This document shows, in pieces, positions 14,690-57,550 of a DNA stretch of 64,000 nucleotides. The notes beneath the pieces were generated by a model, which did no database searches, was not told the DNA's origin, and worked only from the letters and a program-made list of their open reading frames with translations. The translations under genes were made by a program, and so were the position numbers. The first letter of the stretch is position 1; every line of letters starts with the position of its first letter. Source of the stretch: Geosiphon pyriformis (lineage: Eukaryota > Glomeromycota > Glomeromycetes > Archaeosporales > Geosiphonaceae); NCBI GenBank assembly GCA_016748015.1, contig JAAOMT010000695.1:1-64000 (forward strand), read 5' to 3'.

Positions 14690-16260
14690 CTATTGATAAA
14701 ATACACTGCAATTACCCATGATAATACCGAAATAAGGGCCGTAATGTTCTTGAATGCTATTCTCGCCTGCGATAGATTGTCCAGAATTACATTCCTAAAT
14801 TTTTGTTTAATTGAATAATCAGTTCTGAAGCTTTTACTTGAACTCACAAATTTCGAATTGAAAAACAAGGTCAATGCTATAATTATAAACAAGGGTTATT
14901 ATCTTCTACTAACCTTATTCTCCCCTGTTAAATCCTCTCCAGGAATCCAAAACTTTTCCTTAATAAAGCGGTTCACTCTGAAATAATTTCTTTCTAATTT
15001 GAAAATTTCTTGGGATCTTCCGCAATCCCATACAGCTTCTCCATCAAATAAAACGGCATTTTTATTTTCAAGACAATCACAATCTATTGGTCCAAGCCAT
15101 ACTTCTCTTTCATGATGTTGCATTATTGAGCGCCTATTTTCAATTGGAAGAAAATGTGGAACGTAATCGTTTCGACGAGTAACTCTTGTGACCTTTACTA
15201 ATTCATTCATCATTTTGGCAAACAATGTATTTCCCGTTCTTGGTTGACCGTAGGTATAAATAGAAATATTAATTAATCTTTTAAATTGGTTGATTTCGGG
15301 TGGATGAGATCCAATAATATTCATAATTGCAAACGATAAACCCGCTATAGCCGCGTACGCTGTCAATTTTAAAAAGAAAAATAAATGAAAATTACTTTAG
15401 AAAAAGTTTTTGAAAACGAAAAAAATCTAAATCACTCACCACCACCCACTCCATGTCCACAAAAAGTAATTTTTGTTAACTCCTCGTCTTCTATATGACC
15501 ATATATATTTGATAGCATAGCATCCATCATAAGGGAGACCTCACCGAACCATTCTTTATCAACTAGTACTAATGCATTTGTCGACATTCCTGGAACACTA
15601 AATGGTACCAACTCATTTGTTCTATCTTCCCATTCGGCTTTGGTCAAAATAGGAGCTTTGAAATGTACAAAAATTTGTTCTAATTTCACATCCGTCAATA
15701 CGGTACCTGTTATATATGGAAATAGTGAAAAATTTATTCGAATTGAAGAGTCGTCAAGATTGGAAAAGAATTAGATTATTATAAATACCAAAGATATCTT
15801 TGCCATTTTTTACCAAGCTTCCAAGAGTATTAATTAAGGAATATGGAAAACAATAGGGCATATTAGCATATAGAGCTTGCATTTTTAATAATGCAACTTC
15901 ATCCCTTTGAGTGATGTCAAATAGTCGTTTTTTAAGGTATACTTCATTATCAAAGTCTGTTCTTTTGTAAAATAAATGATCGTCTATAATTTGTAACGTT
16001 TTTGCCGCAAATGAAAATCGAGATAATTTTGAAAGTTTCTTGATTGATTTTGAAATACTTTCAGTTGGATAAAGTTTATTACGTTTTAAATTTAGGAAAT
16101 TCTTCAAAATATTTCTCAATTTTAAACCATTCAAATGGAAAGAACTTCCAATTAAAATAAGGAATAAGAATATTAAAATTAATAAAATCGAATAAAATTG
16201 GTTTGATTTTATTGAAAAAAATCGAAAATTTTTGGTAGAATTTCCTTGAGCTGTATACAT
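14690..16260 (-). CDS. Class-3 lipase-like protein A, nucleophile serine replaced by glycine
   Basis: Four exons (16260-15789, 15706-15440, 15359-14914, 14794-14690) with GT-AG introns and consistent phases give 429 residues. Residues about 22-41 (FYSILLILIFLFLILIGSSF) form one hydrophobic segment, so it is probably a type II membrane or secreted protein. A basic linker leads to ANMPYCFPYS, the usual lipase YC. The elbow reads FCGHGVGG: Gly243 stands where GHSxGG has the nucleophile Ser. Downstream are YGQPRTGN, TRRNDYVPHF (Asp311 at the acid position), HHEREVWL, a CxC pair (DCDC), WDCG, ECNSGQ and EHYGPYFG (His412 at the probable His position). The class-3 lipase fold looks intact but classical hydrolysis should not be possible. 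Gene E is its closest relative in the window. Confidence 0.85.
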
Positions 16261-19200
16261 TTTTACTTAAAAAAAATTTGCACAATTTAATAAGACAGGA
16301 AAAATTAATTTTTTAGCTCTATATTTGAAGATGATTAGAAAGTATATTACAAAGTAAAATTTGTTGTGGGGTGTTTTGAAACAATTAAACAAATATTTCT
16401 CAATGATAGGCAAAAGTTTTTTGAAACTTGTTATTTGTTATGACATATCAATATCGGAATCTTGAACAATCCTTATCAATTTAGCATAAACCATTTAATG
16501 CAAGTAATTTAATTATTTTCTAGAGTACTTGAACATATATTTTTGTGAAATAGATAAAAGAAATATCTAATTTGTATATATTTTTTGCTAATTATTTATT
16601 ATTTTTTTTTATATCTAATGTAAATGGTATGAAATTTCTTTTGTCAATACAATCAGAAATAAACTTTTTTTTTTAGTAATTTATTCAAAAAAATTTTATT
16701 GTGCCTTTTATTTTTAGAATTATTTATTAACTTGAATAAAATTTAAAAATGTTTATAATAGAAATTTCTTTTAAATTTTATTTTAGAGAATGACAATTTT
16801 GATATAAAAATTGGTATAAAATTTTTTTATATATTTTATTTTTAAAAATGACTAAAAACTAATAACCTAAAGTTAAGATTAATTAGTTTCTAAAGAAGAC
16901 TAATAGCAAAATTTATTAAAATATAATTTAAAATTCCAAGTAATTTTGAATATTAATTCGATAAGAAAATTGTTTTATTCAAACTAATATTAATTTGTCC
17001 AAATTAAAATATATTTTGTTTAATTTACCAACATATTTTTATTATTCCTATTTCTTTTTAACATTTAAAATAATTGTTTCTCAAATATATCATTAAATGA
17101 TTTGGAATCACAAAAGAGTTACAACCAATGGAGTCTAGATTTTAGATGAGATATCGATGTTTTGGCATCTTATTAGGGGGTTTTTTAATTCCTAAAGAGT
17201 TCGACCTAGAACATTTATCAGTAATAGATTTTCTATCACAATTTTTTTAATGCTAATATTTTAATACAATTAGCGGACCATTTAATACTGCGCAATTTTT
17301 TGCAGTAGATATCCCATTCTTCTTAAACATTTCTACCTTATAACATTCATTTTTACTAAAATTAAAAAACCTATGTTTTGTTATTATAAATAAGCACACA
17401 CGTGCAATTTAAGGCCATTATTACTGCGATTTTCATGATATTGAGAAAAATATCCCAATTTTATGTGATTGTGTTTATTGATATATAAGTCAAGAATCGG
17501 TTCTTTCTAATGATATTTCTGGCTATAAAAAACTATCATATATAATATTTTTTGGTTAATGGGATTTGAAAAATGGTTATTTTGACACATATAATTTTGC
17601 TGTAGCTATTGATTAAAAAAATTTCTTATCAATGATATTATTAGATGAATAATTTCAAAATATGGAATACTCATTATAAATAATGTGTATTTTGGACAAT
17701 TTGCCTCTATTAACTTCAATATTGTAATTTTTTTTAAATTAAAATTTCTATTCATAAGATCAAAAATGGCTTCTGTTGTATTATAAAAATATTTTTCTAA
17801 TATGCTTCCTACTTTTAAAAATTATGAGATTTTTCTAGTCAAGTTCTTAAATTAGATTTTTCTGATCTAAATTATAAACCTCTTGTAGTTGGGTTGTTTT
17901 AAAAAATGCTTTTTCCATTAATCAAATTTAGAAACAAACGTAACTTCACAAAAATAAGTAAGATGATTTAACGAATGTTTCAGAACAATTAAATTCAGTT
18001 ATGTATTAGTTTTTTGTTGACTAAAACACTTTTTTTAGGAATTTAATTAAATTAATTTGCTGTAATCTTTGTAATTGTACTATCGTTGGTTTAGCTCAAA
18101 TAGATAAAACTAAATTTCTTGATTTGAAATTTTGATATATTTTGAGAGCCCCATTTAAATTAAATTAAATTAAATACCAATCAATCAATCAAGCATTTTT
18201 TTTTAAGATTCATTTATTCATATGTAAATTAACACACAAATATTCAATTATTTACAACTTTCTCAAACAATAAAAAAATTTAAAATTTAAAATCTAAATA
18301 CTAGATAGAATAAAAAATATTCATTACATAAAAATTTTTATAGCGTGATTTTTTATTTAAATTTTTTTTTAATAGTTTACAATTATTTTCAGGCTATATA
18401 AATTTGTTTGGATAAACAATAAATCATGTTTAATATAAACAACAATAAAAAACTTTTTGAATAAGATTAATTATTCCGGCAAAATTTTACAAGACTTAAA
18501 AAAACAATAATAAGTAAATTTAAATTTTAGTACATTTTAAAAAAAAAATTTAAATATAAAAATTTATTTCGAAATACAAAGCAAAGCAAGTTAACATTTT
18601 CAAAATATTCTTATCAAAAAACATTTGATAATACAAAAATTTCAATTTTGTATTAAAATTGTTATATCAATATATAATAAATAATAATTAAATAAATTGC
18701 AGTTATTTTTAATTATATAATTTATGAGAAAAATAATAATAAAAATTTTATTTTAAAATAATTAAACTTTTTATTTCTAATATTTATATTATTAATTATT
18801 AAATTTTACAATTATATAACTTTTATATGTATTTATTAAAAATAAAATAATATTTTTACATTTTTTAGAATTTGTATTTTATATTTGTATTAATATTTCA
18901 ATAATTATTTTTAGTCTTAATATTCAATTAGTTGTTTGATAATAATTCACACTAATTATTTTAATTACTCTGAATATTTTAAATTTATATTGTCCTACAA
19001 TATAACAAAATAGTTTTAATATTTGACAAATATATAATAAAAATATATAAATATAAACCGGCTTAATTATAATAACGCCTACTGCAAATGGTTTACCTAG
19101 AACTTTTAGTAAACAGAATTTTGATATCCTTAATTATTGAACTCTGAAAGGGATAAAAATAATGATATTTGATATTTGATTTGATTAAGTATGAAATTCT

Positions 19201-21362
19201 TATTTGGGTTTGAATTATCATTTTTATTGAAAAGATTGATATTTATTACCTCACAAAATTGATTTTTAGCTTTTTCAGATATTGAAAACCAAGTACATAC
19301 TTTAAACATAAAAATTCAAAGGATCAATATTTCAAGATAGCAGACTTGGCACATTTATTATTTAACCTAATTTTTGTGATTATGGTGTATACCACGAGTC
19401 GAACATTAGAAAGAAAAGTATACTGACAAAAAATTTGAAATATTGATTTTGTTGAAAATTCAGAAGTAAAAATAATTAACTTGCCAAATATAAAAATTGT
19501 AAATCTTTTCTATGATTTATAATTGAATTCGATATAGAGAATAATACTCATCAAAATTTAAAAAATTTGGCGAAAAAATTTTAAGTCTCAATATTTCTGG
19601 TCAGTTCTATGATCAAATATTTGATAAATATAATTGAACTGGAATTGTAAAAGACATTTGACTTTTAAGTGTTTTAAAAATTCAAAGTTGTTTTAATTTT
19701 GATGTTAATAGTCATAATTTAAGCTAAATACAGATTTTTGCTTGAAAATTTGAGATGGTTAATAATTGGGTTGTCAGTTTTCTAAAAATATTTGTGTACC
19801 TGTTAGAATAGGAAACTTTTCAGATATTGTAAGATAACTTTTATTTAGATCTTTGATCTCAAATTTCCTCTTGGATTTCAAATTTGACCGAATAATTTTA
19901 ATAAATAGGTTCTAAACACTACTTGTTTTAGGACGCTTCAAATTATCAAATACAATATAGTTTTATTGCTCCCCGCTGATTTTATCCACCAAATGATTCT
20001 CAAAAATAGTCTCTATCATTTATTTATTCTTGATGCCTACCGATTTGATTGAAAAGTGTAATCTTCTATATTTGAGGTCAATTTTAATGACGAACAAGAA
20101 AATTTTATGAATTTCACTTCTCTAAGACATGTATATTAAATTGGGCTTTACTTTTGATGCTTACTGTACACTGAAAGATAGACAAAATCTATTTCATCAC
20201 TTTTTATTTATGTTATAATGTGAAATGATACTAGTGTATGAGCAATGATCTTTGATGAAGTTCCCTCTTTCTTTTATTTACTTCCAAGCCACTAACAGAG
20301 ATGTGCAGTGTAAGGAAAAAATCACATGTGAATTTTTGTCATATTATTTAAAAAATATTCTCGTTCTGCATCTTATTTACTTTTATTCTCCTAATGAAAT
20401 TACATTCATAGATGAGGCCTCGAATGAATCACCAAAATTGTGCGAAAACTTACAGCTACTCAACTCCTTCACAAGATTTTATTTATTGTGTGTCTACATT
20501 TAACTTATGGCATCCTAAATTAGTACATGTCAAAGCCTTCATCGAATTGAAAAAAAAACTTTTAGAATACTTAGCAAATGCATTCTTGGAGAGATATGAT
20601 TTCGATATTTAAAGATTAATATGGTCATTTGAACTTCTCGATTTATTGAAATTCTTTCACAATCGACGAAACAACACTATGAATGATATATCAGAAGTTT
20701 GCTTTTGATCATCGATTATCTGATCCAATTACGTTTAGTGTATCTTAAATTTGGCTTTTACTTTTGCCAAACCATCAAATTTATTTCGCTACGTAAAAAC
20801 CCCTTAATCGCAAAATATTCAAGATGATAAAGGAAAGTTTTCATAAAGAATCAAGATTTTAAGTTAATTCTACCGGTCTAGACAGCCAGATAAAAGCAAA
20901 GATCATGCATCTCTGTGTCTTCCGAATTGTGTTTAAAGTTAAAACTAAAGATATTTACCGGATGAATTAAGAACCATTTTACAAGATGAAATGAATAACG
21001 AATTTAGCAAGCAAACTCTTTTGATTGATATTTGAGTTTATTTTCAGAGCTCGTCTTAAAAATATCATTAAGATTGTAATTTAAAGTTTTCAGTCTCTAT
21101 AAGAAATTTAATTTGAACTAATTTTTCAATGTTAAAAGCTCTGTAATTTTGATATTAAAAATTAAATTTTCCATCATCTTTCATTAAAGTGTAAGAATCA
21201 AGAGTTTTAATTTAAATCGTAATTACAGTCAAAAAAAAACATTCATTCTACATTTCTTAATGCAGGTAACCTATTGACTGAAAGATGCCAAAACCTTCTT
21301 CCAATAAAAGATAATGATCTTTCAAGACTCCCTTTTTTTTTTTGAGAGAAAGAAGCAAAGAT
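16261..21362. other. 5-kb gene-poor AT-rich region
   Basis: Apart from the transposon remnant at 17100-17300 I see no supported gene. A frame near 20252-20503 contains SPNEITFIDEA, which resembles the entry into the kinase domain of the 4757-7611 gene (PDEITFLDEVG). It stops soon after and could be a kinase relic or chance. Confidence 0.4.
17100..17300 (-). mobile_element. 5'-end remnant of a Tc1/mariner-like element
   Basis: On the minus strand this stretch matches the start of the element at 27290. Both share GGTCCGCTAATTGT.TTAAAA, then GATAAATGTTCTA, then GATATCTCATCTAAAAT in the same order. No transposase coding remains here. It lies in opposite orientation to the 27.3-kb copy. Confidence 0.55.
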
Positions 21363-22811
21363 TTAATACACTTCCTTGTCAAGCGCAAACCCTTCACAAT
21401 TCCCCATAGTTGTTCTAAGATATGGGCCAAAATGAACATCATGCTCTTTATCTTCTAATGAATCCACTGTGCCTAAGTTACATTCCTTCAAATTAAAAAG
21501 CAGTAAGTTTTCACAAGGTAACCCAAGCCAAAAAACAACATATTACGGTAAAATTTATTCCTTACATTGTTTTCATCAAAATCTAGCAGAGATTTCCTTC
21601 CGGAACAATCATATATCACATCTTTTACTTTTTTCACGTTTAAATTACAATTACAATCCTGATTTTCAATCCAATATTCTCTGTAGTAATGTAAAAAATT
21701 TCCTTTCGCCATAAAATCTCTTGGTATCCAATCATTTGAATGAGTGACGCGAATAAATCCATTATAATTTAACGTTCTCTTCAAGAATCTCACAAAATAG
21801 AAATCTCCAACTCGTGGCGCGCCAAAAGTTATCACCGAAATTTTAGAGACATCCATCTGAAATTTCTGAACCATCAATGTTTGAATATATGTGGCTGCCA
21901 GGATTGCGTATGCTTTCATAAAAAAAAATTAGTTTCAAAACATTGAAAATTTACATTGTATGAAACTTCATACCTCCCCCAATTCCGTGCCCAACAAAAT
22001 GAATCCTCCAAGGAGATTCGGTTTTTTTATTTCCCCAAAATTTTTTAAGTTTCTGGATGAGAGAAGGCATCATTTTTTGGACATGCTGATGCCACACTGA
22101 GTCCACGAGAGGTCTTTGCGAGAGATATTTTTCCACTTCAATAGGGAGAAGATCAATTGGCCGTTTTTTCCATTCATCTCGAGTATAATGAGGACCTCGA
22201 AAGTAGGCAATAATTACCATGCCTTCCAAGGTTTTCTGAAATGCATCGGCTGGATAAGTAAATTCAAAAATAAGTTATTATTTAATTTCAAGATATTATC
22301 CATATTCAGAGAATACATCTTATTAAACAATAAGAAACTTACCAATAACATTTTGGTCCAAAATGACTTTACCAATTTCATTATGCTCTGGAAAACAATA
22401 AGCGAAATTTGCATATTGCGCCATTCTTCGAAGAAAGTTAATTTGTGCTTTGTCAGTCAAACTTTCTTTATGTGGGGGTGGGAATACTGGTTCTTGTGAT
22501 AAATAATATTTGGTGGACCGTTTAGATGGTGGTTTTAATTCATTCTTTTTGAATTTGGTAAAAATTTTTAAGTTAAACTTAGTAAGTCTCTGTGAGATAT
22601 TCGACCATGGATTTATTTTTTGAGGGGAAAAAGACGAATCAATCCCCTTTGATTTTTCAATAGAGCATCGGTTTGCATTATTCCAAAGCTTAATTTCATT
22701 TTTGGAATGAAGATTTGATAGATTGGGTTTTGGCAAAGCTCCCGAATAGGATGAAATGTAGTCAAAAAATAAAAAGGCTGACAAAAATGAGAATTTTAAA
22801 ATTAATTTCAT
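21363..22811 (-). CDS. Class-3 lipase-like protein B, nucleophile serine replaced by glycine
   Basis: Four exons (22811-22343, 22249-21974, 21912-21566, 21485-21363) give 404 residues. Unlike its paralogues it has a clear cleavable-looking signal peptide (MKLILKFSFLSAFLFF...). Landmarks in order: ANFAYCFPEH; IIAYFRGPHY; the elbow FVGHGIGG with Gly245 in place of Ser; TFGAPRVGD; RVTHSNDWIP (Asp309); YYREYWI; DCNC; YDCSG; ECNLG; and VHFGPYLR (His382). Exon 4 is not visible as a long open frame in its own right. It was found from the conserved ECN start after ...GAAG and from the GPY motif. The hydrolase fold is evidently kept without a nucleophile. Gene C lies about 1.7 kb upstream, facing away. 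Confidence 0.83.
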
Positions 22812-24548: not shown

Positions 24549-26074
24549 ATGATGTTAAATTATAATTACATTTATTCGTCTAAAAAAACTGTGGGAAAAG
24601 AAATTATTCTAGCGCTGTTTTTATCTTTTATTTTATTTAATTATTTGTCGCTTTTCAAAGATCAATTTACTAAATTTTTAAGAAAAACCACTCCCATCTC
24701 AGACAATTTGGCTCCAGCAAAATACACACTATTTTTACTCGAATTAAAATTGAATTTTACCCTTCAAGAAAAAATATATCAAAACGAACATGAAAAGAGA
24801 TCACTCTTTTCAAGAGCTACGGGATTTAACAATGATAAAAATTTTATCCCACCCAAGAAGTTTTTAAAAGATAAAGATCTTTTTAGACTTTTTACTACGA
24901 TGGCTCTCTGGGCAAATATTCCTTATTGTATTCCTAAGGCTTCAATATCAGGTCCAGGATTTATTGGTAAGATAGCTATCAAAATAAAAATTTTTTTTGT
25001 CGAAAATTTCACCATCATTCTTCTTTATTTATCAGGTGATGTTGCATACGATCCACAAGTTTCAATAATTTTTGGATATTTTGGCGGTAATTTTTGAAAA
25101 AAGTTTCTTTCTTTAAACCTTAAAGCAAAAAAAAAATTATTATTCCATTTTTTTTAAATTATTTAAAATTAGGGCCTAAAATAACCAAAACACAATTAGA
25201 AACTACCAAGTTTCAAATGATGAAATTGAGAGGAAATGGTTATTTTAAAGTTGATTTGCATTGGTGGACTATGTTAAGGGATCAATATTGTGATGCTTTT
25301 ATCAATAAAATAGAGCATGGAATTTACGAAATTAGAAATAGAATGGGATCAAAACAACGAATCGATATTTTTCTAACTGGGCATAGAGTTGGAGGATGTA
25401 AGAATTTTATAAAATCAATATTTTCATTCCAAAATTATAAAATAGATTTTAAATTGAAATTTTAACCATTCAATTACTATCAACTCAGTCTATGCCCAAA
25501 TATTAGGCTTTTTACTCCTGGGTTTCCTAGCTGTAGATGAAAATGTTAACATTCATGTTGTCACCTTTGGCTCTCCACGTCCAGGTGATTATCAACTTGC
25601 TAAACAAATCAACATTGGCTCTCCAATTCAAGGGAATTATCAAGTTTCTGAGCAAATTGACAAGCGAAGCAATAAATTAAATATGTACAGGGTTACGCAT
25701 ACTAATGAATTTTTTCCCCATTTCCCAAAATATTCGGTAACGGGTGTACAATATATACATCCTGGCACTGAGTATTGGATTGCGGGTATTGATTGTGATT
25801 GTAATGAGCCAATAGTTTATGAATGTCCAGGATTTTCAAAAAAAAGTCAAAAGAAATATGGTGAAAGTCTGGTATGTCTTCTTCTTTTGATTAAACTTTT
25901 AAAAAATTCTTAAGAATTAAAAGCTTAACAGTTTTGTTTTTTCTCATTTTGTAGCAATGTAATTTAGGGACAGATGGTACAGGAACAAGCACCCATGACA
26001 CCATTTATTTTGAAACTATATTTGAAGACTGCACGGAGTTTCTTGATGACCCTAGTTTTTTTCCAAGAAATTAA
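24549..26074 (+). CDS. Class-3 lipase-like protein C, most divergent member, Ser replaced by Arg
   Basis: Five exons (24549-24966, 25036-25086, 25173-25397, 25489-25871, 25955-26074) give 398 residues, all with GT-AG introns and consistent phases. One hydrophobic segment lies near residues 20-36 (IILALFLSFILFNYLSLF). Landmarks: ANIPYCIPKA; IIFGYFGG; the elbow LTGHRVGG with Arg228 at the Ser position; TFGSPRPGD; RVTHTNEFFPHF with Glu305 where the acid Asp is expected; IHPGTEYWI; DCDC; YECPG; QCNLGT; and THDTIYFE (His373). A 16-residue tandem duplication (GSPRPGDYQLAKQINI, then GSPIQGNYQVSEQIDK) widens the GxPRxG region. With two of three triad positions changed, it is the least likely of the five upstream genes to be an enzyme. 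It is the only family member here on the plus strand. Confidence 0.82.
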
Positions 26075-28184: not shown

Positions 28185-29633
28185 TTAACTACAATCTCCC
28201 ATTCTAATGTCGAAATAAGGCCCATCATGAAAAAAATCATCCGGAACGTTGATGATTGATTGTCCTCCATTACACTCCTAAAGAGAAGAATTTTTTCAAA
28301 ATTTTATTGATTCAAAAGATTTTCTTTAAAAAAAAAAACCTACCATATTCTCACTATTCCATTTCTCAATCCATATTTCTCTTTGAGTCAATTTAAGTAA
28401 TCGATTATTACAATCCCAATATGAATATGGATGAAAATTAACATCATCGGAACAATTGCAATTTTCTAATGGCTCAATCCAGATTTCAAACCCAAAATGT
28501 TTCCACTTCAATAGATCACGAGGAAAGTGTGGAACATGGTCATTTCCATGGGTTATACGATGATGTGTAATTATATCATTTGCAAAGTTACTGAATTGGT
28601 TATTCCCAATTCTCGGAGCTCCAAATGTGATAATCTGTTGTCCAATGTTATTCACATCTATTTCAGGCCATAACTTCGATTGAGTAATCTCATATCTTTG
28701 AATAGCCCATCGGATACCAGCGATTGAGGCATATGCTATTATTTCAGAAATATAAAGTATTTCAGATTTTTGATTATCGAAACTGAAAAAAAAAAATCTT
28801 TAGTTTCCCAAACCTCCACCAATACCATGCCCAACGAAAAAAATTTCCCTCGTGTTGGGACTTTTTTTTAAAACTTCCCGCATCGTTTCTAAAATTCTGG
28901 GAAACATGGATTCAATAATTTCCGAGAATAGTTTATTAACACGGGCACCATGGTCAAATATTGGGAAGCCTTTCACTTCAAATAAAATTTGTTCATGGAT
29001 TATATTGGGCCAGGTAATCTTTTTTATTTTCTAAGAAATAAATAAATAAATTTCTATTTAGTGAATTTAATTCTGACATTCTATTTCAGGAAATAAAAAA
29101 TAATTACTGGTCCTCCAAAGTACACAACTAAAGCCGTATAAAATTCTTGATTTTTTACAAATCCCAATTTGACTAAAGAGTAAAAATTTAAGATAAATAT
29201 CAAAAAATAATTTTTGATATGAAGTTGACCTAAATCAATTGTTTTATTCTGAAAGGATCAAACCAGTTATAGATCCATTTGTTGAGTTGCAATAGGAGTC
29301 ACTTGCAAGGTATGCCAACTGTTTATAAAGTGAGAATAAATATTTGTCAGTTTCTATTAAAGTTTTAGGCAACGATTGAGATCGTTTTGTGACTCGATTA
29401 AATTTGAAAGGAACTTTAATTTGATTTTTCCAATTAACTATGATTGGAAAAGTGAGATTTTCATTCTGTTTGAAGAAATTTTGAATTTTTAGAGCTTTAT
29501 GAGAAACTATCCAATCTTCAAAATTTTCATGCGACCAAAACTGAAATGCAAAGTATATAAATATTGGAAGGATAATTTTTCTTCTCGATAAAATTTTGAA
29601 AGCTTTCATGGCAAAATCTTTAAAAGAAGTCAT
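28185..29633 (-). CDS. Class-3 lipase-like protein D, nucleophile serine replaced by glycine
   Basis: Five exons (29633-29264, 29172-29108, 29030-28814, 28735-28344, 28277-28185) give 378 residues. The start is the ATG at 29633 (MTSFKDFAMKAF); the frame open to 29645 uses a TTG. A hydrophobic segment follows at about 18-32 (IILPIFIYFAFQFW). Landmarks: ASDSYC; VVYFGGPK; FFVGHGIGG with Gly214 in place of Ser; TFGAPRIGN; RITHGNDHVPHF (Asp283); KHFGFEIWI; NCNC; YWDCN; ECNGGQ; and FFHDGPYFD (His365). The donors of introns 1 and 3 are GTTTGA and GTTTGG, weaker than elsewhere. The small second exon (65 nt) is supported by frame continuity and by similarity to VVYFGG in gene C. It belongs to the same serine-less family. 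Confidence 0.8.
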
Positions 29634-33091: not shown

Positions 33092-34567
33092 TTACATACA
33101 GTCACCCATCGTTATACCAAAATAAGGACCAAAGTGATTATCCCTGCTGGAGTCTGTAATTGTTTGTCCAGCGTTACATTCCTAAAATTATTATTTATTC
33201 ATAAAATAAAAATATAAAGTTTTATTAAGCTTATAAATTTCAGAAGAAGAAATAATTTATATTATAGATAAAATTATTTCTTCACGAACCATATTTTCCA
33301 TCGCTAGATTATCACCAGGAGTCCAAAACCTTTCCCGAATAAATTGTTGTATTCTAACTAACTTTTTTTCTTGATTATCTTCTAATTGTCCACAATCCCA
33401 TATAACCTTGTCTGTGTTTTGGGAACAATTACAATCTATTTCAATCCATATTTCTCTTTCATGATGTTGCATTATTGTGCTCTCATTTTCAATTGGAGGA
33501 AAATGTGGGAAATAATCATTGTAATGAGTTATTCTTATAACCCTTACTATTTCATTCATCATTCTAGCAAACATAATATTTCCGACTCTTGGTTGACCCA
33601 AAGTACCAATAGAAATATCAAGTGGTAAATTTGAATCCAAAAGATTCATTATTACAAATGATAGGCCTGCTATGGCGGCATAAGCTATTTGTTTTTTAAT
33701 TAAAAAGAAAAAGAGTGTCAAAATTAGTAAAATAAAAAATATGATATCCTTCCCTCTATTAAAAGAACTAACCACCACCAACACCATGTCCACAAAAAAT
33801 AACCCTCTTATATCCACTATCTTTTAGTAAAATATTAACTTTGTGGTTAAGAAATTTCATCATCAATGAAACATCATCAAACCATTCTTGATCTACTTTT
33901 ACTAATTCATTTTTCTTCATTCCTGGGACACTAAATGTTACAAGCTGGTTTTTTCTAGCTTGCCATTGTGTTTTTGTGAAATGGGGGCCTTTAAAATACG
34001 CAATGATTGTTTTGATTCCATCTGATTTTGTTACATCAGCTTTTAGATTTATAAGAATAAATAAATAAGGAAAAATTTTAAACCAGATTAATTTGGTTCA
34101 AAAATCAATTAATTGAATAATACTCAATTTCATGAAATACCAGTAATTTTATCCTGTTGCTTTATCGATTTTCCAATTTGATTATAAGGAAAGCAATAAG
34201 GAAAATTTGAAGCCGTAGCTATCAATTGTAATTTTAAATTGTAGAGTTCGTTATTGGTAAGGCTAATTACTCGTTTCTTAGGGTATCCTTCATTATTGTG
34301 AGCTGATTTTTTTGAAAAAAAATTAAAGCTGTTATTTTTAAATGTTTTTATTGGAAATGATAATTGAGGAATTTCTGGAATTTCATTGTAATTTTTTGGC
34401 TTTATAGTTAAGAAATGGAGTGAAAAAGAACATGGGAATTTGAGGTCATTGAAATAGTAAAAAATTTTGGCCAGAAAAATTATTTTAAATAACAATATTA
34501 AAAAGATAGAACAAAATTTCTTTGATTTGAATAAAAAGAATTCTTGCATTTTTAACATGATCTGCAT
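33092..34567 (-). CDS. Class-3 lipase-like protein E, nucleophile serine replaced by glycine
   Basis: Four exons (34567-34141, 34039-33773, 33684-33290, 33181-33092) give 392 residues; the exon plan is the same as gene A. A hydrophobic anchor lies at about 20-36 (IFLILLFKIIFLAKIFYYF). Landmarks: SNFPYCFPYN; IIAYFKGPHF; FCGHGVGG with Gly228 for Ser; LGQPRVGN; RITHYNDYFPHF (Asp288); HHEREIWI; DCNC; WDCG; ECNAGQ; and DNHFGPYFG (His379). The donor of intron 3 is GTTCGT, less usual. It is closest to gene A (AYAAIAGLSF, IMN and the HHERE block are shared), suggesting a duplication inside the cluster. Exon 2 contains the GHG motif in a different frame from the long open frame 33257-33817, which reads through the intron. 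Confidence 0.83.
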
Positions 34568-38381: not shown

Positions 38382-41300
38382 ATGTCTAAGCGGCATGAAC
38401 CAGAAAAATCCTCCCCGATTCGTAAGGAAGGCATCAAGAAACAAAAAAACAAAGATCTTGAACTCTATTTCGAAATCAAGGTGTCGAAAAGACCAGGAGT
38501 GGGGACATTGGGAAGAACAGTAGCACTCAAGGCGAATTATATACGCATCGTTCAAGTAATTATTTCCGTGGATTATAAATTCTTTAAATCGGAAGGTCAT
38601 GATTTCAACTGTAAAAAAAAATTTAATACAGATTTCACACTATTCGCCTCTCAGCTACTAGATCGCTTGATCTATCATTATAATTTTCTCGTAGAACCTC
38701 CAGTTAAAACTCCTGTCGCCCTTACGATTTTTTCCAAAATTGGAACTGATGGAACTTTTAGTGATGTCTGCCCCGTGTTTGATGGGAACAGCTCTATCTA
38801 TTCTTTTCGACCTTTGCCTATTGGCAATAAGGAAATTGGAGAAAAGATTTCGGTTAATTTTTGAATTTTTCGTTTCGTTTTTGCCTCGCAACCTGTAAAT
38901 TTTAAATCCTGCGATTATAATAGGTCAGACTTGGCAAGATAAAAACTTTTCATGTTACCATCCGAAAAATTGAAGAGTTGGAACTTAGACCTGTATTTGA
39001 CTACATTTCCGGGAAAACTCCCCTCAATAGCCAAATTGCTAATTGCAGGGCCATATTAAACACTATTTTTAATTATAAACCCCGAAGCACATTTGCTACA
39101 TTAAAGAAAGGTATATTTCCCGAAGTTAATAACCAAAAACCAATTCTTTTGTCCGGAGGTATTCAGCTAAAACTTGGATTATTTCAAGCTTTGCATTTAG
39201 GCTGGGGTAAGTAAAAGCATAATTATTTTAAAAATGACTATTTTAATTAAATCAAATCTACAAATTTTAATTTTCTAGATCATATGTATCTTAATGTGGA
39301 CGTTTGCGCAGCTACTTTTTATCCGAGTATGTGGCTCATCGACGTTATAGGCCGCTACTTGGAAAAAAATCACCGAGACGATTTGCGACGTGGTATAAAT
39401 ATCCAGGAAAAAAGAAAAATCGAAAAGGTGGATGGAATTAACAACAATTTAACATCTTCGCTTCAATAATTTCAATTAATTTCATGTTTATAATTTTGAT
39501 GGGATATGGAAGTACTTCCATGGAGTTCAAATAAGAGTAATCCATCGTGGAGAGCAAAAACGTAAATACAAGATTGAAAGGTTTTCACAAATGGCGACGG
39601 ATGAACAGACATTCCTAAAAAATGGGAAGCATATCACAATTCTTGAATACTTCTCTCAAACCTATGGAAAGCGATTAGAATATAAGGCTTTACCTTGCAT
39701 TGTCGTCAAAAAGAATGTACTTTTGCCGTTGGAGGTATGCGAGATAACTCCAGGTATTTAGGCAATTTTGAATATATATGTGAGCTTCTTATAATTATTT
39801 CAAGTATTGAAAGATTATGAAATTCGACATCTCAAATGAAGGGCAATCATTTAAAAAAGAGTTAAGTGATAAAGTCAAAGCTGAGATAGTTAAAACAACC
39901 GCAATGAAACCCCAAGAAAGGTTCCGTTTTATCGAAAATGGCATTCAAAACTATTTCAAGTATCAAGAGGATGAAAATCTTCAACAGCTTGGCGTCCGAG
40001 TTGAGAACCAACTTGTTACTGTAAATGGTGGATAAGAAGAATTTTCTTTTTTTCTTTTCATTATTTATTTCTTTGAAAGTTTATATCATCTAAATATGTT
40101 ATATCAGGGCGAGTTCTCGACACCCCAACTGTTACTTTTCATCCAAAATCACAAGCTAGAGAGGAAGCTCCCCGCAGTGCAAGATGGACCCTTAATAACA
40201 AAATTTTTGTAAAGGTAAATCAATTTCAACTGTTTCCTCCATATTAGGATGGCTTCTAACTGCCAAAATTCATTAAGGGACGCCAATTAGTAAACTGGGG
40301 AATTCTTGTCGTATGTGGTCAACAGGATGCTCCACAACAAAATGTACAAAGGTTCATTCGTGAAATCAAAGATGTCTTGAGGGAAAAAGGGATCGTAAGT
40401 ATTTCAGTAGTAAGCAAACAAATTTAAAGGTTTTTTATATATTAATTCCTTAAAATGTCTTATAGATGGTTGCAGAGAATCAAAATCCTTACCTTCAATA
40501 TAATGATCCAATTCATAAGAATTTAGAAGAGGTATTATTCATTATACCAATCCAAAATTATCAAAATGTTTACTTCAAATTATTATTATATCCCTTCAGG
40601 CGTTCAGTCAAACAATTGAAAGATGTCATGTTAACAAAAATGGTCCACCCCAATTGATCATCTGCATAATTGCGAAGAAATCCAATGAGCTTTATGGTCG
40701 TATAAAGATGTTATCAGACCACAAATTTGGCATACCAAGCCAAGTCATTATTGCTGATAAACTGCGAAGGGCGAATAATCGACCATGCTGGCAGAACATT
40801 GCTTTGAAAATTAATGCAAAACTTGGCGGGCATAATTGTTTTTTGAAGCAAGATCAATTAAGATATTTATTAGAGATGCCTGTAAGTAACTTTCAATTCA
40901 GAAATTAACGGCAACTATTGCTGATGATATATAATATTGATTATGATTTTGATATGAAAGACCATGATCATGGGAGCAGATATTTCCCATCCTGGCCCAG
41001 GGACTAACCAGAAAAGCGTTGCCGCCTTATGTGCCTCAATGGAACCATCTGGCACCACCTATTACGGCCGTTGCAGTATAAACCAAATTCTACGCAATGA
41101 AACAATAGAGAGCTTAGAGGATATGGCCTTTGAATTATTGAAAATTTTCTGGGAGAAGAACAAGCTTCTTCCTTTGCGCATTCTTTTCTATCGCGATGGT
41201 GTTTCGGACTCGCAATTTCGTGCAGTCCTAAATAAAGAAGTAATAGCCTTGAAAAAAGCTTTTTCGAGGATATGCGGTAACAATTCAAAAATACCAACAC

Positions 41301-41991
41301 TCACTTATATAATAGCACAAAAAAGGCATCACACTAGGTAATTAAAACTAGTATTACAACCCAATCATTTACTTTGTTGATTTGTTCTTACTTGACTCAA
41401 TTTTCAGATTTTTCCCAACAAATCTTCGGGAAGGTGACAGAAACGGAAACTGCCAACCGGGCACAGTAGTAGACACAATGATTGTATTGAAAGGAGAATT
41501 TGATTTTTGTATGTTTTTCATAAAGTGATATGATTCTGCGTAATAATCAAATAAATCTTTGTTACTGACTCAATTTTATTAGATCTTCAAAGCCATTCTG
41601 GTATTCATGGCACTACTCGTCCAACACACTATTATGTGTTGTTCGATGAGAATGATCAAAAGCCTGATGCTTTCCAAACCTTAACATACCATTTGTGCTT
41701 TTTATATGCACGGTAAGTATAACATTTTGACTACTTTTTTGAAAATGAACTATTGCACGTATTCCAATCTAAATATCAATGTTATCTACCTTATTAAGGT
41801 GTTCCTCGGCCATTTCAATTGTACCACCTATTGCCTACGCCCACTTGATCGCCCAAAGAGCTCGACTTTATCCAATGAATGAAGATGACCACAATTTTGG
41901 CAATGAAAATCATTCTGAAACGAATTCTCTCTCAACAGTTAGCCTTCCAACACTTCATGAGCAACTTTCAAAGGCAATGTATTTTGTTTAA
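38382..41991 (+). CDS. Argonaute (PAZ-PIWI) protein with complete slicer tetrad
   Basis: Fourteen exons give 867 residues: 38382-38555, 38655-38852, 38924-39206, 39279-39427, 39513-39753, 39842-40027, 40108-40214, 40278-40394, 40466-40531, 40600-40881, 40961-41337, 41408-41508, 41583-41712, 41799-41991. The N domain opens with KRPGVGTLGRTVALKANYIR. A linker, PAZ (YFHGVQIRVIHRG ... ALPCIVVKK) and MID (YGRIKML, NIALKINAKLGG) follow. PIWI has MGADISHP (Asp608), NETIESL (Glu648), YRDGVS (Asp680) and AYAHL (His819). Their spacing matches the D-E-D-H tetrad of slicing Argonautes, and the protein ends in the usual MYFV. It should bind small RNAs and cut complementary RNA in the silencing pathway. 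Exons 1 and 2 are also joined by a 99-nt stretch that stays open in frame. I treat it as an intron because removing it restores the NxxR...YHYN spacing. Confidence 0.9.
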
Positions 41992-44274: not shown

Positions 44275-45074
44275 TTTTTATTTTGAAACGTTGGGCAATT
44301 TTAAGTGAGAGAATTCAAATTCTTTTTGAAAATAAATTGCTTTTTAAATAAATTATCGGGGATAAATCAACCAAATAGGTAGCGATTTAATAAAAATATG
44401 ATGTATTTTTTACGATAATTTGACGAAAGCATGATCGATTGTGTTGATAGATCGAGATGACTCAGTTTTACCGAATGTTGTGAAAAATATCTCATCAAAA
44501 AATATTTTTCACATGGGGATTGTCAATTTAAATTTTTTTTTGATATAATAATTTATAAAATCGAAAATATAGGTTATTTAACGATATTAATTGCTTTAAA
44601 AAAAGAATTTCACCCTTTTATTCAAAGGATTAATAACAAATCTCAGTTGTATTCTTTTATTACTTAATCTGTTAATAGGAATAAAAAATAGGTATTATTG
44701 AAATCTTTTAATTTTTTAAAAAAAACTAATCCATATTATTTTAATGTACTTGGTATAATCAAATAATATACATATATAAATATCAAAATTAATTATACAC
44801 GGAGTTATAAATCATGATTTTATTTATTTATTTTTCTACCTAATATAAAAACTTGGTTTTTGAAAAATAATTGTATTAATAAATTAAATTATATGATAAT
44901 ATTATGTTAGATTTTGTGCTCAGATAGTAAAATATTTTCAAAAAACTAATTCAATAAAAACTTAAATGATGACGCTATTTTTATTGGTTGGTTGCCAGGA
45001 AATGTGAGTGGTCTCTGAGAGAACAAGTCTGCAACACAAATAAAATAATTGAACTTTTAAATATATCTCTATTC
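44275..45074. other. Intergenic spacer between two minus-strand genes
   Basis: AT-rich, no gene seen. It contains the promoter of the gene starting at 44274 and the 3' flank of the next. Confidence 0.45.
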
Positions 45075-47466: not shown

Positions 47467-47514
<48 letters not shown>

Positions 47515-48315: not shown

Positions 48316-50009
<1,694 letters not shown>

Positions 50010-51276: not shown

Positions 51277-51310
<34 letters not shown>

Positions 51311-51803
51311 ATAAAATATGACCCTATCGATAATTCATAAGCGAAAGGGTTCCCCGTGTGACCAACTTTCAAAATCATTAAAAAGGACGAGTTATTATTA
51401 CCATTATTATTATAATTTGACATGTGATCTTGATAATTGAACCAGGGGAAAGTATTGATAATTTATGACTGACCAACAATATGATAGGGTAAACAATTTA
51501 TTTCGTAAATCCTCTTGATTTATTTGATCAATCATGAGGTGTTTTAAAGAAATTATTATCCAGACACGTAAGACAATGAGTGATTTGAAAATTTTAAAAA
51601 CGTCTACAAGATTGGCAACGCAATTTTTATCAATCCTTGGGATGCTTTAAACAGTTTTTCTTTGAAATAATTTTGGAGAGACGATTGAACATTTTTTTTT
51701 TCAAAATTTCTCAATATCAACGCGTGTAATCAATCTTTTCAAGAAAAACAGCAACAGTAATCCCTCCTAATTTAATTTCAGCTAAAGAATTTTATCAAAA
51801 GTA
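50010..51803. other. Intergenic region between HPPD and the lectin gene
   Basis: No supported gene. A minus-strand frame at 51187-51423 is mostly built from the microsatellites at 51231-51308. Confidence 0.45.
51231..51308. repeat. Compound microsatellite (AAT)n and (CAA)n
   Basis: An AAT array (about 51231-51250) is followed, after a short C-rich spacer, by about ten CAA units (about 51278-51308). Both strands read as homopolymeric amino-acid runs, which explains the false open frames here. Confidence 0.88.
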
Positions 51804-52644
51804 ATGCGAGAAATTACAAAGGTATTTTAATATTAATTTCAGTAATAAAATGTAGAAATTTTTACGAAACAAATTCAATGAAAATTTTTGTGAATTTTAC
51901 CGCGTAAACGTGGTTATCATAAATAAATTACTCAAGTTTGAAACGATCGTTTCTGTAATACTTTAGAACGTTATTAGAGTTGCTGCTGCCAAGGAAACGG
52001 ATGGAATTCAAACTGATTATGGATCATTTTTGCCAATTCTAGCCGCTTCTTCTTTCTCTTCATCTGGTATAGGTAGTCAGGGCCTAATAAAATCAACCTT
52101 ATATGGTGGTAATAGTGGTGGCCATAAGTTTCAAACTTTATTTTCCTCATATCTCGGTATTCAAAATGTCATTTCACCAAACGGTACCACCCCTGCACGT
52201 CTTGCAAAAATTGAAACACGATTTTGCAACACAATCCATTCCATAAAGATGTATTGGTCAGATAATTCTTCAGTTAGTTATGGTGGGGAAGGAGGTTGGT
52301 TAAAAGGTTCTTTCGAATTTCGCGAAGGTGAACAAATAAGCGCGATCGTGATCCGGACGAATGGTATGCACTTGAAAGGGTTACAAATAACAACAACTGA
52401 ATGTCGACTCAGTCAACGATGGGGTTCCGTTGATTTTTCTGGCGATGAACAAGTGTTGAAGGCTCCAAGAGGATATGAGATTATTGGGTTACATGGAACT
52501 ATATATCAAGAACGGATCCAGAGCTTGGGAATCATTGGTAGTTGGGTTGATGCTATACCATTATTTCCGAGTGTTTGTACTGATGAAAGCGCTAATTCAG
52601 TTACCGAACGAGATGATGAATCAGAGGGCTCACATCAAATTTGA
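51804..52644 (+). CDS. Jacalin-like lectin domain protein
   Basis: The main exon (51967-52644) is entered through an acceptor TACTTTAG and reads RVAAAKETDGIQTDYGSFLP onward. A small first exon, ATG at 51804 to 51821 (MREITK), with donor GTATTT, completes a 231-residue model. The exon 1 choice is the least certain part. The core has the jacalin pattern: RFCNTIHSIKMYWSDNSS, YGGEGGWLKGSFEF, GEQISAIVIRT, LKGLQITTTE, RWGSVDFSGDEQ, then PRGYEIIGLHG and IQSLGIIGSW. The usual G-G near the start and the GlhG loop are present. It has no signal peptide, so it is probably cytosolic, like most jacalin-related lectins. Sugar specificity cannot be read. The tail is acidic (TERDDESEGSH). Confidence 0.75.
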
Positions 52645-53928
52645 TTCAAGTGTTTTATAAAATACTTGTTATATAAGCTAAACTAACAAAGAAAAATGTA
52701 TTTTTGATAATTATAATTTGGGTTTCTATGTAAATTGTGATAAATATTTGCTATGTAAAAATGGAATTCAAGTTTTTCTAGGCCTTAAATAAACGCGATA
52801 TTATATATTAACCAATCGAAGTCTAAGTATATTCCGGGATATAGTTTTTTTCACATAAAAAAAGATTATCAAAAATTGATTTGAACTTGGTTTTTTAAAA
52901 AATTCAAATATATCCATTTATTTAGGTCCAATTAATTTTATATTTATTTTGATGAAAAAAGTTCAGTAATAAATACCGCCAAGTAGATCAACTCATTTCA
53001 TAGGATAATTTTCAATTGTATGAAAGCTAACATTTTAAAATTCATGTTGAATCTCGGATTTTCGCCACAATTGGGAGTTTTTTTTTAGTAAAAAATTCGG
53101 AATAACAATCATTTCGATCGAACAACGCAACACATACTCCTAGGGACATCGTTTTGTGTTGCGAACGTGAGAAAATCTTTGTATATATGTGGGAACGGGC
53201 ACATATTTAGACATTATTAAACTGAATGAATTTTTATTTGTAAATAGAAAAAATGTAAAATCCAGTCACACAAAATACAGATTAATAATTTATTTAAACA
53301 AATCTATAGTTTTTCAAAAACTCTTATTAAAATCTAAAATCTAAAGAGAAATTTAAAGATAACGCTCGAATTATCATTTTTTGCTTTGGATTTTTCAAAT
53401 TTTTAGTTAAATTCTGCAAGTCTTACAATCAATAATTGAAGAAACATTATGTAATCTAATTGTATTTACATATTTAATAAATCACAATTTCGTCTACTTA
53501 AATTTAAAAGGGATGAGATAAGGATATTCAAAAAAAAAATGGGTGTTTTACTTAACAGATATGCGGAAATGAGAAGAATTTTTTTTATTGATCTCGAAAT
53601 TGTTTCAATATTACCCCCCTGATACTAAGGGAGGTTCCTGTGTCATACATTTATTTAAGAGGATAAAATTTGAATATCATTGACTTGGTCTGACGGGAAT
53701 AAAGCATTATCAAGAGCTTTAGATCTGCTAACTATAGAATAGTCTAAATTATTATTAAGAAACAATAGTTTCGATGCTATATATGAGTTTTAAAGTATTA
53801 AATTTTCAAAGATGAAAATTTGCTTCTCTAGAACTTTTTCATTAGGCTCTAGAAATTTCATTATCGCAAGTTATACCAGATAACCATTTTCCTTCAAACC
53901 TTATTCTCCTTAATTTTTTTAAAAAAAA
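52645..53928. other. AT-rich intergenic region with one short hairpin
   Basis: No gene seen. Near 53126-53163 the arms CGCAACACA and TGTGTTGCG could pair as a 9-bp stem with a 20-base loop, in a locally less AT-rich patch. Confidence 0.45.
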
Positions 53929-55447
53929 TTAATGGCCATTACCACCCTTAACTTGATTTACAAACGGTGGAAAATCTTGAAGTTGTTCGCAGTTTTGTGG
54001 ACTACCCATCGTCTCCCCAAGATAAGGACCCCGAAACGAAGCTATTCTTTCATCGATATCCGCTTGCATTGCCAAAAGACAATACTTTGAATTAAGAATT
54101 TTTTCAAGGTTAGAATAAATTCTTGATCACAAAATACATTGCAAACCCCAAAAAAATTGCCCAAGAGCTATATACCTGGGATTCATAATTGGGAACTTGA
54201 TAGGGTTCCTTGTTGGGGAAACATTCATACACAATAGGAGGGTTTTGTGGATCGTCTAAGCAATCACATCCTTCGGCAAATGGAATCCAAAATTCTTTAT
54301 GATGGTGTACGTATCTAGATAAGATACCTGTTGCTGGGGATCTAGGATAGGTTGGTGCAATATCGGCTCCAAATGTAATTCGATAAAGATTGGGAAGTTG
54401 TTTGCTTACATATTCACCAAAAAAGTCAATCCCAAGACGAAATTGGCCAAATGTGTAGACAGTAATTGGAAGTTCAGGAATTTTTCTACGGTAATGCAAG
54501 GCAAGGAATACTGCATGACCTGGAAATTATAATTTGAGATTCGTTTTGAATTTTTTATTGGTATTTTGTAAATTAGAATATCTAAAAGATAATTCGAAAA
54601 CAAACCAGCCCCGAATCCATGTCCGACAAATGTGATACGCTTTCTTTTTTTAGGTTGAGCTAATTGATCGTCCACCATTTGAATCAACCGGTTTTCAGCT
54701 TTTAGATATTCGTCATATAATTTTTGATGGACGTATAAACCTTTAACTATATACGGGCTGACTTCGGTATCAAAAACGGTCGAATCATTTATATTAAAAT
54801 CGGGGCCTTTAACTCGAATGAACACAATAATCTCATTATAGGGAGTCAAAATCGCCTTAGCTATATTTCAAGATTTTGTGGTATATTGAATTATTTGAAA
54901 CGCAAAATTAGAAAAATTTTCAAAATTTTCAAAGAGGTTTACCATAGTCTCCTATCGAAATCTGATCTTGCGATGAGCTCAAACAATAGGCTCGATTCGC
55001 AAAGTAGGCATATTTCTTGAAATCCCAGAGTACCCTTTGATTCTTGATCTGAATTCGATAGTCCTCTGGGTTCTCGCCTGCAGGTGTTTCAGGTAAAATA
55101 TTACGTTTGAATATTTTAGTTGAACGAATTTCGCCAAGAACTTTTGATAATTTAAAGGCAAATTGAGGTATCACCAATGTTTTATTAAAAATAGTGAAAT
55201 TATGATTTATTTTAAAATTTTTTGATAGATTGAAGTTTCCAAAATCATGAAAACCTGACTCTAAGAAACGATCATGATCCTTAATTTTCTTATGAGCAGC
55301 CCAAAGTTCATGGAAATTTGAAACGAACAAAGAAAAAAGAATTATAATAAAGAATAAAGGAATATAAATTTTTTGTATCAAATAATTATCTTTGACCATT
55401 TTTTGATTAAATTTTTTAAATTCCAACGAGTACAATTTCCCATTCAT
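53929..55447 (-). CDS. Class-3 lipase-like protein F, Ser and His both missing
   Basis: Four exons (55447-54943, 54860-54606, 54519-54176, 54084-53929) give 419 residues. The N-terminus has one hydrophobic segment at about 27-45 (IYIPLFFIIILFSLFVSNF). Landmarks: ANRAYCLSSS; IIVFIRVKGPDF; FVGHGFGAG with Gly250 for the nucleophile Ser; TFGQFRLG; RITFGADIAPTYP (Asp306 at the acid position); HHHKEFWI; GCDC; YECFP; YCLLAM; and IASFRGPYLGETMG, where Phe385 replaces the His. So two of the three catalytic residues are gone. The PxxR-G block also reads GQFRLG instead of GxPRxG. The C-terminus is longer than in A-E. It is paired with gene G about 0.6 kb upstream in the same orientation. Confidence 0.83.
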
Positions 55448-56036
55448 GTTTTAAACAAGAGTTTTTAGAAAATTAGCAAGCTTTTTTATTATTATTATTA
55501 TTATTTTTATAATCACTTTTTTATTTCGTGGGAAATCGATAAATTAGATTATTAGTGATGGGGTAAACTTAATTAAACTCAAATATTTATCATTCCCTTT
55601 TAATATTTCAAACCCGAGATATATTAGATATTAGATATTAGATATTAGATATTAGATATTAAATTTTAGATATTAGATTTTTAGATATTAGATATACTTT
55701 GTTTCCATTAAAAGATGGTATCGCCATCTTTTAATCTTTATAAATATTTTAAATATGAAAAATAAATAGTTATGATGCTCCTTATATTGAATTTTTTTTT
55801 AATTTACGATAAATCTTTAATAAAATTCATGAATACTTAACAACATTCCTATATTTTTCTTTTCATGGCCAAAATTTTGATTTTCAAAAATTAATGGTCA
55901 TAAAAAAAATATCAGTATAATAAATTAAATACTACTACATTTAATTATAAGAGTTCATTCAAAAAAAAAAAAAAAAATTTTTGGAGTGATATGATCAAAA
56001 AATTCACCGTTGTGGATGCTCAAGCAAAAATAGCAT
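55448..56036. other. Spacer between tandem genes G and F
   Basis: AT-rich; it holds the promoter of gene F and an octanucleotide tandem repeat at 55616-55695. Confidence 0.5.
55616..55695. repeat. Octanucleotide tandem repeat (ATTAGATA)n
   Basis: About nine units of ATTAGATA, the first five perfect and the rest with small changes. It lies roughly 170-250 bases upstream of the gene F start codon. Confidence 0.88.
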
Positions 56037-57550
56037 TCACAATGGTGGAAAATCTTGAAGTACTTCACAATTTTTCGGCATCCCCATCGTCTCCCCAAAA
56101 TAAGGCCCCTGAAATGAATCCAATCGCTTTTTTAAATCTGCTTTCTTTCCATTAAGGCAATACTAAAATTTTTAAAAAAAATTTGAACAATTTGATCTCA
56201 AACATATCTTTCTTTCGGAAATAGAAAACACAAAATTGAAAATTATATCCCTACTTGTGATTCATAAGATTTATGCGCAAAAGGATATTGCTCAGGCAAA
56301 CATTCAAACACGGTAGGAACGTCTTGCTCATCGTTAAGACAATCACATCCTTCCGTAAATGGAATCCAAAATTCTCTATGATGTTGTACGTATTTAGGTG
56401 TAACAGTATTTTCATTGTTCAGGGGATAGGTCGGTGCGATATCGGATCCAAAAGTGATTCGATAAAGATTGGGAAGTTGTGTGCTTACGTATTCACCAAA
56501 AAAGTCAATTCCAAGACGAAGCTCACTGAATGTATAGACAGAAATTGGAAGTTCAGGAATTTTTCTACGGTAATACAAGGCAAGGAATACTGCGTGACCT
56601 TTTAAATCAATTTGTAAACTTTTATTTTATTTTATTTTATTTAAAAAATGTGGGATTCAAAAAATTTAGAAATAAATAATAAGTGATAATTCAATAACCC
56701 ACCAGCTCCAAATCCGTGTCCAGTGAATGAAATTTTTGTTCTATTTTTGGCTTGATTCAATTGAGCGTCAACAAGCTCAATCAATCGTTCTTCGGCATTG
56801 AAATATTTGTGATAAAATTTTCGATGTACATATAAACCTTTAACTGGATAAGCACTATAATCCGGGCCAAAACCAGTGCCAAAAATATCCGGATCATATA
56901 TATTAAAAGTTGGACCTTTGACTCGAATGAATACAATGACTTCATTATAGGGAGTCAAAATTGCTTGAGCTAAGTTTTAAATTTTTTGGAATGTATAAGC
57001 AATAAAATTTTATTGGAATTTTCTTAAACTGGCAGAATTTTGAATTTCTGAAATGGGAATTACCATAGGCCTCCTTTGAAAGTGCATTCTCGGGTGAATT
57101 TAAACAATAAGCTCGGTTCGCAAAGTAGGCATATTTCTTGAAATTATAAAGTACCCTCGGATTTTCAATTTTAATTCGAAAATTTTCAGGTTTTTCGCCT
57201 TGAGGTAGTTGAGGTAAAGATCCACGCTTAAAAATTGTAACTGGCAAAAATTTATTAATATTTTTGGAGGTCCTATATTCGTAATAATTTTTTGTTAATG
57301 TATAATTAAGTTTGGCAAGATTGCTTGGTCGTTGTAGAAATATTGATCTATTTTGATTCCTAATATTATTATTAAAATCGGTCTCCTGGAATGTTTCATG
57401 ATTTCCAAATTTTTTTTCGACCTTTAAAAATGCGTTAAAAGATGAAACTAAAAAAAAAATTAAAAGAGCGGTAAGAAAGAAGGAGAGAAAGTTTTTTCGA
57501 ATCACCAAATTTGTTTCAAAAATTTTGTTATTAAATATTCGAAATGACAT
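56037..57550 (-). CDS. Class-3 lipase-like protein G, Ser and His both missing
   Basis: Four exons (57550-57064, 56969-56703, 56598-56255, 56162-56037) give 407 residues. The anchor segment is at about 20-37 (FLSFFLTALLIFFLVSSF). Landmarks: ANRAYCLNSP; VIVFIRVKGPTF; FTGHGFGAG with Gly248 for Ser; TFSELRLG; RITFGSDIAPTYP (Asp304); HHREFWI; GCDC; FECLP; YCLNGK; and LDSFQGPYFGETMG with Phe383 for His. Exon 3 is almost identical to that of gene F at the protein level (RRKIPELPI, IDFFGEYVS, QLPNLYRITFG), while exon 1 and the C-terminus differ more. This suggests a recent tandem duplication, or gene conversion limited to the core. Exon 4 ends earlier than in F. Confidence 0.83.

Follow-up and report, generated by a model that had tools for sequence, protein, structure and literature searches.

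Glycine in place of the nucleophile serine in a large family of class 3 lipase-fold genes of an AT-rich fungal genome

Why would a fungus carry seven genes with the fold of a class 3 lipase, close to one another, if none of them encodes the nucleophile serine of such an enzyme? The question is raised by the window, the whole stretch of 64,000 nucleotides analysed here (GC content 28%), in which a first-pass annotation had recognised seven class 3 lipase-fold genes, A to G, at positions 14690-57550. The positions were found to be right. The genes were spliced by hand at GT-AG introns, their outer limits agreeing with those of that annotation, and all seven gave proteins above the cut-off for the Pfam family Lipase_3 (PF01764; 45-68.9 bits against 22, gene E being scored on a variant of its 3' end). 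No domain besides Lipase_3 came above cut-off in a Pfam scan of the window proteins of 373-429 aa. An N-terminal hydrophobic stretch is present in every gene, judged by eye only, and fits the suggestion that the products are secreted or membrane-anchored.

Gene A (14690-16260, minus strand, 429 aa) consists of four exons at 15789-16260, 15440-15706, 14914-15359 and 14690-14794, and its elbow reads GHGVGG, with the Gly codon GGA at 15450-15452. Gene B (21363-22811, minus strand, 404 aa) also has four exons, at 22343-22811, 21974-22249, 21566-21912 and 21363-21485, and the elbow GHGIGG (GGA, 21984-21986). Gene C lies on the plus strand (24549-26074, 398 aa) with five exons at 24549-24966, 25036-25086, 25173-25397, 25489-25871 and 25955-26074, and here the elbow is GHRVGG (AGA, 25385-25387). 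Five exons were likewise placed in gene D (28185-29633, minus strand, 378 aa; 29264-29633, 29108-29172, 28814-29030, 28344-28735 and 28185-28277), the elbow being GHGIGG (GGT, 28824-28826). The remaining three genes are on the minus strand and have four exons each: gene E (33092-34567, 392 aa; 34141-34567, 33773-34039, 33290-33684 and 33092-33181) with GHGVGG (GGT, 33783-33785), gene F (53929-55447, 419 aa; 54943-55447, 54606-54860, 54176-54519 and 53929-54084) with GHGFGA (GGA, 54616-54618) and gene G (56037-57550, 407 aa; 57064-57550, 56703-56969, 56255-56598 and 56037-56162) with GHGFGA again (GGA, 56713-56715). The layout is shared. An exon with a YC motif is followed by one, exon 2 of this layout, which contains the elbow and ends just past it, the intron starting 10 bases beyond the nucleophile codon; the next exon encodes TFGxPRxGN, RxTHxND, HxxExWI and a CxC region or close variants of these, and HxGPY follows in the last exon of genes A, B, D and E.

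The hand-spliced models agree with the first-pass annotation that the Ser of GHSxG is absent from all seven genes, Gly standing in its place in six and Arg in one, and the codons are those that it had read. By the logic of the sequence, splicing from within a GGT codon would still leave its leading G in the transcript, and neither kind of Ser codon (TCN or AGY) could be formed. The oxyanion motif is FKAP in A, FRGP in B, FGGP in C and D, FKGP in E and VKGP in F and G; a profile alignment placed FKGP on FRGS of the solved lipase 1dt3, indicating that the oxyanion position is Pro, and not Ser or Thr, in all seven. The catalytic Asp is kept in six genes, C having Glu at this position. The catalytic His, read by eye, is kept in A (HYGPYF, in the last exon), B (HFGPYL), D (HDGPYF) and E (HFGPYF), is ambiguous in C, where HDTIYF is without the GP, and is replaced by Phe in F and G.

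Other open frames share the window with the lipase genes. To their left are frames with BTB, BACK and TLDc domains (1944-3465, minus strand), and peptides resembling these were seen by eye to their right in the opposite orientation (58396-59164, plus strand), the part at 58895-59164 (plus strand) giving no Pfam match. A Sel1-repeat frame is followed by a frame with a protein kinase domain at 4691-7542 (plus strand). Between genes E and F lies a frame with a Piwi domain (40958-41338, plus strand), and the open frames from 38349 near it may share one Argonaute-like gene with it. An N-terminal domain of hydroxyphenylpyruvate dioxygenase (HPPD) was matched just above cut-off at 48563-49114 (plus strand), and a 225-aa frame with a jacalin-like lectin domain (51967-52641, plus strand) adjoins gene F.

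The first-pass annotation had supposed that the seven genes were part of an expanded family, and a tabulation of elbows across the genome bears this out. The elbow with its splice donor, expressed as the pattern GGNCAYNNNNTNGGNGSNNGT, occurs at 370 sites in the 124.7 Mb genome against 15 in a reversed control. The elbow codon is Gly at 250 of the sites (control 9), Ser of the AGY type at 37 (control 1) and Ser of the TCN type at 7 (control 0), making 44 for Ser, and other residues account for 76 by subtraction; 326 of the 370 sites are without a Ser codon. The pattern misses exons in which the elbow or donor departs from it and lipases that do not have this intron, so the share of Gly is valid for this family and not for the lipases of the fungus as a whole. 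PF01764 itself gave at least 163 matches, 150 of 750 candidates having been scored. From their sequences the window genes belong to a predicted lipase-fold family of several hundred members in one AT-rich fungal genome.

Among the places listed, all 44 with Ser, 81 of the 94 non-window places with Gly and 15 of the 17 non-window places with other residues were fetched, the Gly and other samples being positional, ordered by contig. Two of the other places, C100:125375 and C200:57670, were left out of the sample because they looked like chance matches. An exon 3 scoring above 40 with a model built on the window genes was present at 80 of the 81 Gly places fetched which, together with the excess over the reversed control, indicates that the pattern matches do not arise by chance. 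Protein spanning the elbow and exon 3 was aligned from 134 of the 140 places (80 of the 81 Gly places, 41 of the 44 with Ser and 13 of the 15 with another residue), and with the seven window genes this gave an alignment of 141 rows. Two places were dropped for having no exon 3 match (L010 and L053) and four for scoring below 40 (L038, L043, L050 and L066). As L038 and L043 resemble other proteins, the 44 Ser places include no more than 42 members of this family.

The family is, on the evidence of these alignments, homologous to ordinary lipases of the Rhizomucor type encoded in this genome, nine of which form a classical clade with the oxyanion motif FRGT (support 99). It shares with class 3 lipases of the Rhizomucor and Thermomyces type (PF01764) the fold region, TFGxPRxGN, RxTHxND, HxxExWI and the tail with the His; in contrast to them, Gly predominates at its elbow (250 of 370 sites) and the oxyanion Ser/Thr is mostly replaced. 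At the VHxGF site of the classical copies the Gly rows mostly begin VD (Asp in 63 of 83) and 50 of 83 have Trp in place of the Phe, while the first Cys of CxC is found in 81 of 83 Gly rows but in none of the nine classical ones. One classical copy aligned end to end with 1tgl (2.1e-36), and its last-exon His fell on the His of HLSYFG in the chains 1tgl, 4tgl, 5tgl and 6qpr, which, if residues are numbered backwards from the end of the chain, would be His257 of Rhizomucor. In the best PDB match, 6a0w, the last-exon His was printed one residue off the His of the chain, and a PDB search with the tail as query gave no match. The conserved His of HxxExWI, in alignment column 424, is presumably His215 of Thermomyces and not the catalytic one.

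The partners of the missing Ser are nearly always retained in the copies sampled. The catalytic Asp is present in all 86 aligned Gly rows (80 sampled and six from the window), in 39 of 41 Ser rows, the other two having a gap and an Ala, and in 10 of the 14 rows with another residue at the elbow (13 sampled and gene C). These 14 rows, with Ala in 4 and a bulky or charged residue in 10, still align well. In six such copies (L046, L047 and L056-L059, on contigs C28, C177 and C204) the nucleophile is replaced by Phe, Tyr, Asn or Glu; they group with tree support of 85 and 89, and five of the six have the catalytic Asp. The catalytic His is located in the last exon. It was sought with a model having X at that position in 38 Gly copies, every second of 76, and in five long Gly loci, and was present in 42 of these 43, the exception being L192 with Asn; it was present also in all five classical and all ten other Ser loci. 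The residue that follows the His takes ten different letters, read by eye, in the same 43 Gly copies. That the products are pseudoenzymes, as had been proposed, is likely and no more than that, since almost every Gly copy sampled retains both Asp and His.

For the oxyanion residue one set position in the aligned segment was used, so that single rows may be misassigned. Among the 56 of 83 Gly rows that were readable there were 25 with Pro, 9 with Lys, 4 with Glu, 4 with Ser or Thr and 14 with other residues. All seven readable classical rows (of nine) have Thr, and none of the 19 readable among the 30 other Ser rows has Ser or Thr; the segment gave no reading for 27 of the Gly rows, 11 of the non-classical Ser rows, 2 of the classical rows and 4 rows with another elbow residue. 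A compensating nucleophile was looked for among the polar residues enriched in the Gly rows, and these included no Ser or Thr. The enrichment is in columns of Arg, Asp, Asn and Cys, the Cys pattern looking like that of disulphides.

Trees were built from 136 rows with the elbow column removed, a further five places (L011, L040, L061, L114 and L132) being omitted, and the second tree was rooted on the nine-row classical clade. Within the remaining 127 rows, a clade of 75 (63 Gly, 6 Ser and 6 other) has a support of 99, and of 98 in the first tree. Genes A to E lie inside this clade and F and G outside it, so that two lines or more are represented in the window. The two trees need 22 and 23 changes of the Gly label, of which 9 and 10 are forced by well-supported branches; 61 of the 132 branches of the second tree have support below 80. 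The loss of Ser had been described as old. A deep clade rich in Gly agrees with this, but a single loss is contradicted by the at least 22-23 label changes and by the copies with Ser or Ala inside Gly clades (L001, L006 and L045). L001, with AGT, lies inside a clade of seven (support 99) in which the other six have GGT, and this nesting suggests that Gly has reverted to Ser. A close pair, L011 and L127 on contig C227, has AGT for Ser and GGT for Gly respectively, with a dS of 0.15 over 106 codons; L011 is without a clean start of exon 3.

That Gly is kept under selection, as the first-pass annotation held, seems to apply to the genes more than to the residue. Parsimony puts at least 27 changes at the elbow and 4 at the catalytic Asp, with a median of 51 over 135 columns and no change at Arg385, Glu428 and Cys470, so Gly itself appears only moderately constrained. 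For 20 pairs without overlap, chosen by hand and with dS between 0.04 and 0.61, dN/dS was 0.08 at conserved, 0.35 at middle and 0.92 at variable columns, the conserved columns being judged from distant relatives only and the Nei-Gojobori method possibly inflating ratios in an AT-rich genome. The corresponding values for 16 hand-picked pairs of Gly copies were 0.09, 0.40 and 0.90, and the Gly copies thus look constrained. The low ratios at conserved columns suggest that the genes are maintained, and the pattern can be read as that of a core which is maintained while outer sites change fast.

Given that Ser has mostly become Gly while its partners Asp and His are nearly always kept, it is probable that their role is to bind fats, or molecules related to these, and not to digest them. 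Our preferred reading, to which we would give an even chance, is that these lipase-fold proteins are secreted or membrane-anchored, do not hydrolyse, and have kept a pocket for acyl lipid while varying outside it. In the aligned copies Pro or another residue mostly stands in place of the oxyanion Ser/Thr, and the nucleophile has been lost several times, mostly to Gly, while the core of the fold is kept along with the His and Asp of the catalytic site and variable sites have changed almost freely. Most copies would then be without ordinary ester hydrolysis. The pocket with its His-Asp pair would be kept for an acyl lipid, which is the simplest case, or for some other small ligand, and variation of the surface would give the copies different partners or ligands and hence many specificities. 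The elbow of the alpha/beta-hydrolase fold is strained and Gly relieves the strain once Ser is not needed; as Gly is also one transition away from an AGY Ser, it may be the favoured replacement.

The main rival is a scaffold without a ligand, in which the fold would be a stable, cysteine-rich module for display or protein interaction, the old active site would be empty, and Asp and His would hold loops. This is possible, if doubtful. The Asp, with its 4 changes, is no more conserved than the three columns with none, and as it sits in this structurally conserved frame, Asp and His may have been kept for structural reasons; variable sites evolve near-neutrally, and the 14 rows with other elbow residues align well, 10 of them with the Asp. 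Nevertheless, the last-exon His in 42 of 43 Gly copies, beside a residue that takes ten letters, is much to retain with the partner Ser gone. The retained pair could still perform other chemistry, the His-Asp pair serving as general base towards water or a proton of the substrate in the absence of a Ser nucleophile, as suggested by the Asp in every Gly row and by the nearly constant His; cofactor-free dioxygenases of the alpha/beta-hydrolase fold use a His-Asp pair and have a dispensable Ser. We regard this as unlikely, since Pro at the oxyanion position of 25 of 56 readable Gly rows would remove a backbone NH, no Ser or Thr is enriched in the Gly rows, and the enriched Cys look like disulphides. 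It is similarly improbable that the family switches reversibly between enzyme and receptor, one base change between GGY and AGY toggling the nucleophile while the His-Asp pair performs nucleophile-free chemistry or reads host acyl lipids in a fungus without fatty-acid synthesis. The least likely reading is that the copies are relics, young duplicates drifting into pseudogenes with Gly fixed by chance. Some pairs do have ratios near or above 1 over the whole aligned stretch (L078/L079, 1.00; L084/L085, 1.57), and 11 of the 140 places gave no usable model, among them the two that resemble other proteins, but the ratios of 0.08 and 0.09 at conserved columns argue against drift. The usable open spliced frames at the other 129 places also count against it, weakly, as the donor was part of the search pattern and frames below 60 aa were not considered.

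Binding by a lipase fold without hydrolysis has precedents. Plant EDS1, PAD4 and SAG101 use the class 3 lipase fold with no need for hydrolysis, and profile matches to EDS1 and PAD4 chains were obtained over the lipase region; EDS1 and PAD4, however, keep the Ser nucleophile that the present family has lost, and their C-terminal EP domain had no match in the seven window proteins (Pfam, E 0.1). The yolk proteins of flies and other inactive neutral lipases have a lipase fold with the Ser replaced and serve in binding or storage. They belong to a different Pfam family, PF00151, which the seven window proteins do not match (E 0.1). Among fungi, the insect pathogen Entomophthora muscae has 348 Lipase_3 genes, a number comparable with that of the present family, and these are treated as host-tissue enzymes with the elbow unmentioned in the retrieved portion of PMC11105155; the genome studied here gave no match for trypsin. 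Glomeromycotina mycorrhizal fungi have a mean of 189 lipases, again with no mention of the elbow in the retrieved portion of PMC12574304, and the word 'lipase' is absent from the retrieved portions of PMC11134847, PMC10386755 and PMC10234402. No description of fungal class 3 lipases with a Gly elbow was found among titles and the openings of abstracts, though one may be in print.

The genome itself gives mixed signals about the fungus, which is probably an arbuscular mycorrhizal one of the Glomeromycotina; this assignment draws on the fatty-acid synthase result below, on the missing trypsin match and on the Sel1, kinase, BTB, BACK and TLDc domains of the window. The central domain of the beta subunit of fungal fatty-acid synthase (PF08354) had no match in it, compared with 8.9e-276 for acetyl-CoA carboxylase as control, and although a gene may be present here without giving a profile match, the lack of a detected type I synthase fits a fungus of the Glomeromycotina. 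On the other hand, a large expansion of genes bearing Hint domains is described for Glomeromycotina in the retrieved portion of PMC8778642. Only one Hint match was found here and the AML2 primer site had none, which speaks against a typical member. To a fungus dependent on fatty acids from its host, a large set of surface proteins that bind or sense lipids would be useful.

Annotation based on Pfam enters genes of this kind in the lipase count, from which comparative studies are apt to infer digestive capacity. If the copies bind host lipids, they would be candidates for the capture or sensing of plant lipids by a symbiont that depends on fatty acids. The retention of Asp and His in many diverged copies that have lost the Ser amounts to a natural experiment on the roles which this pair may have besides hydrolysis.
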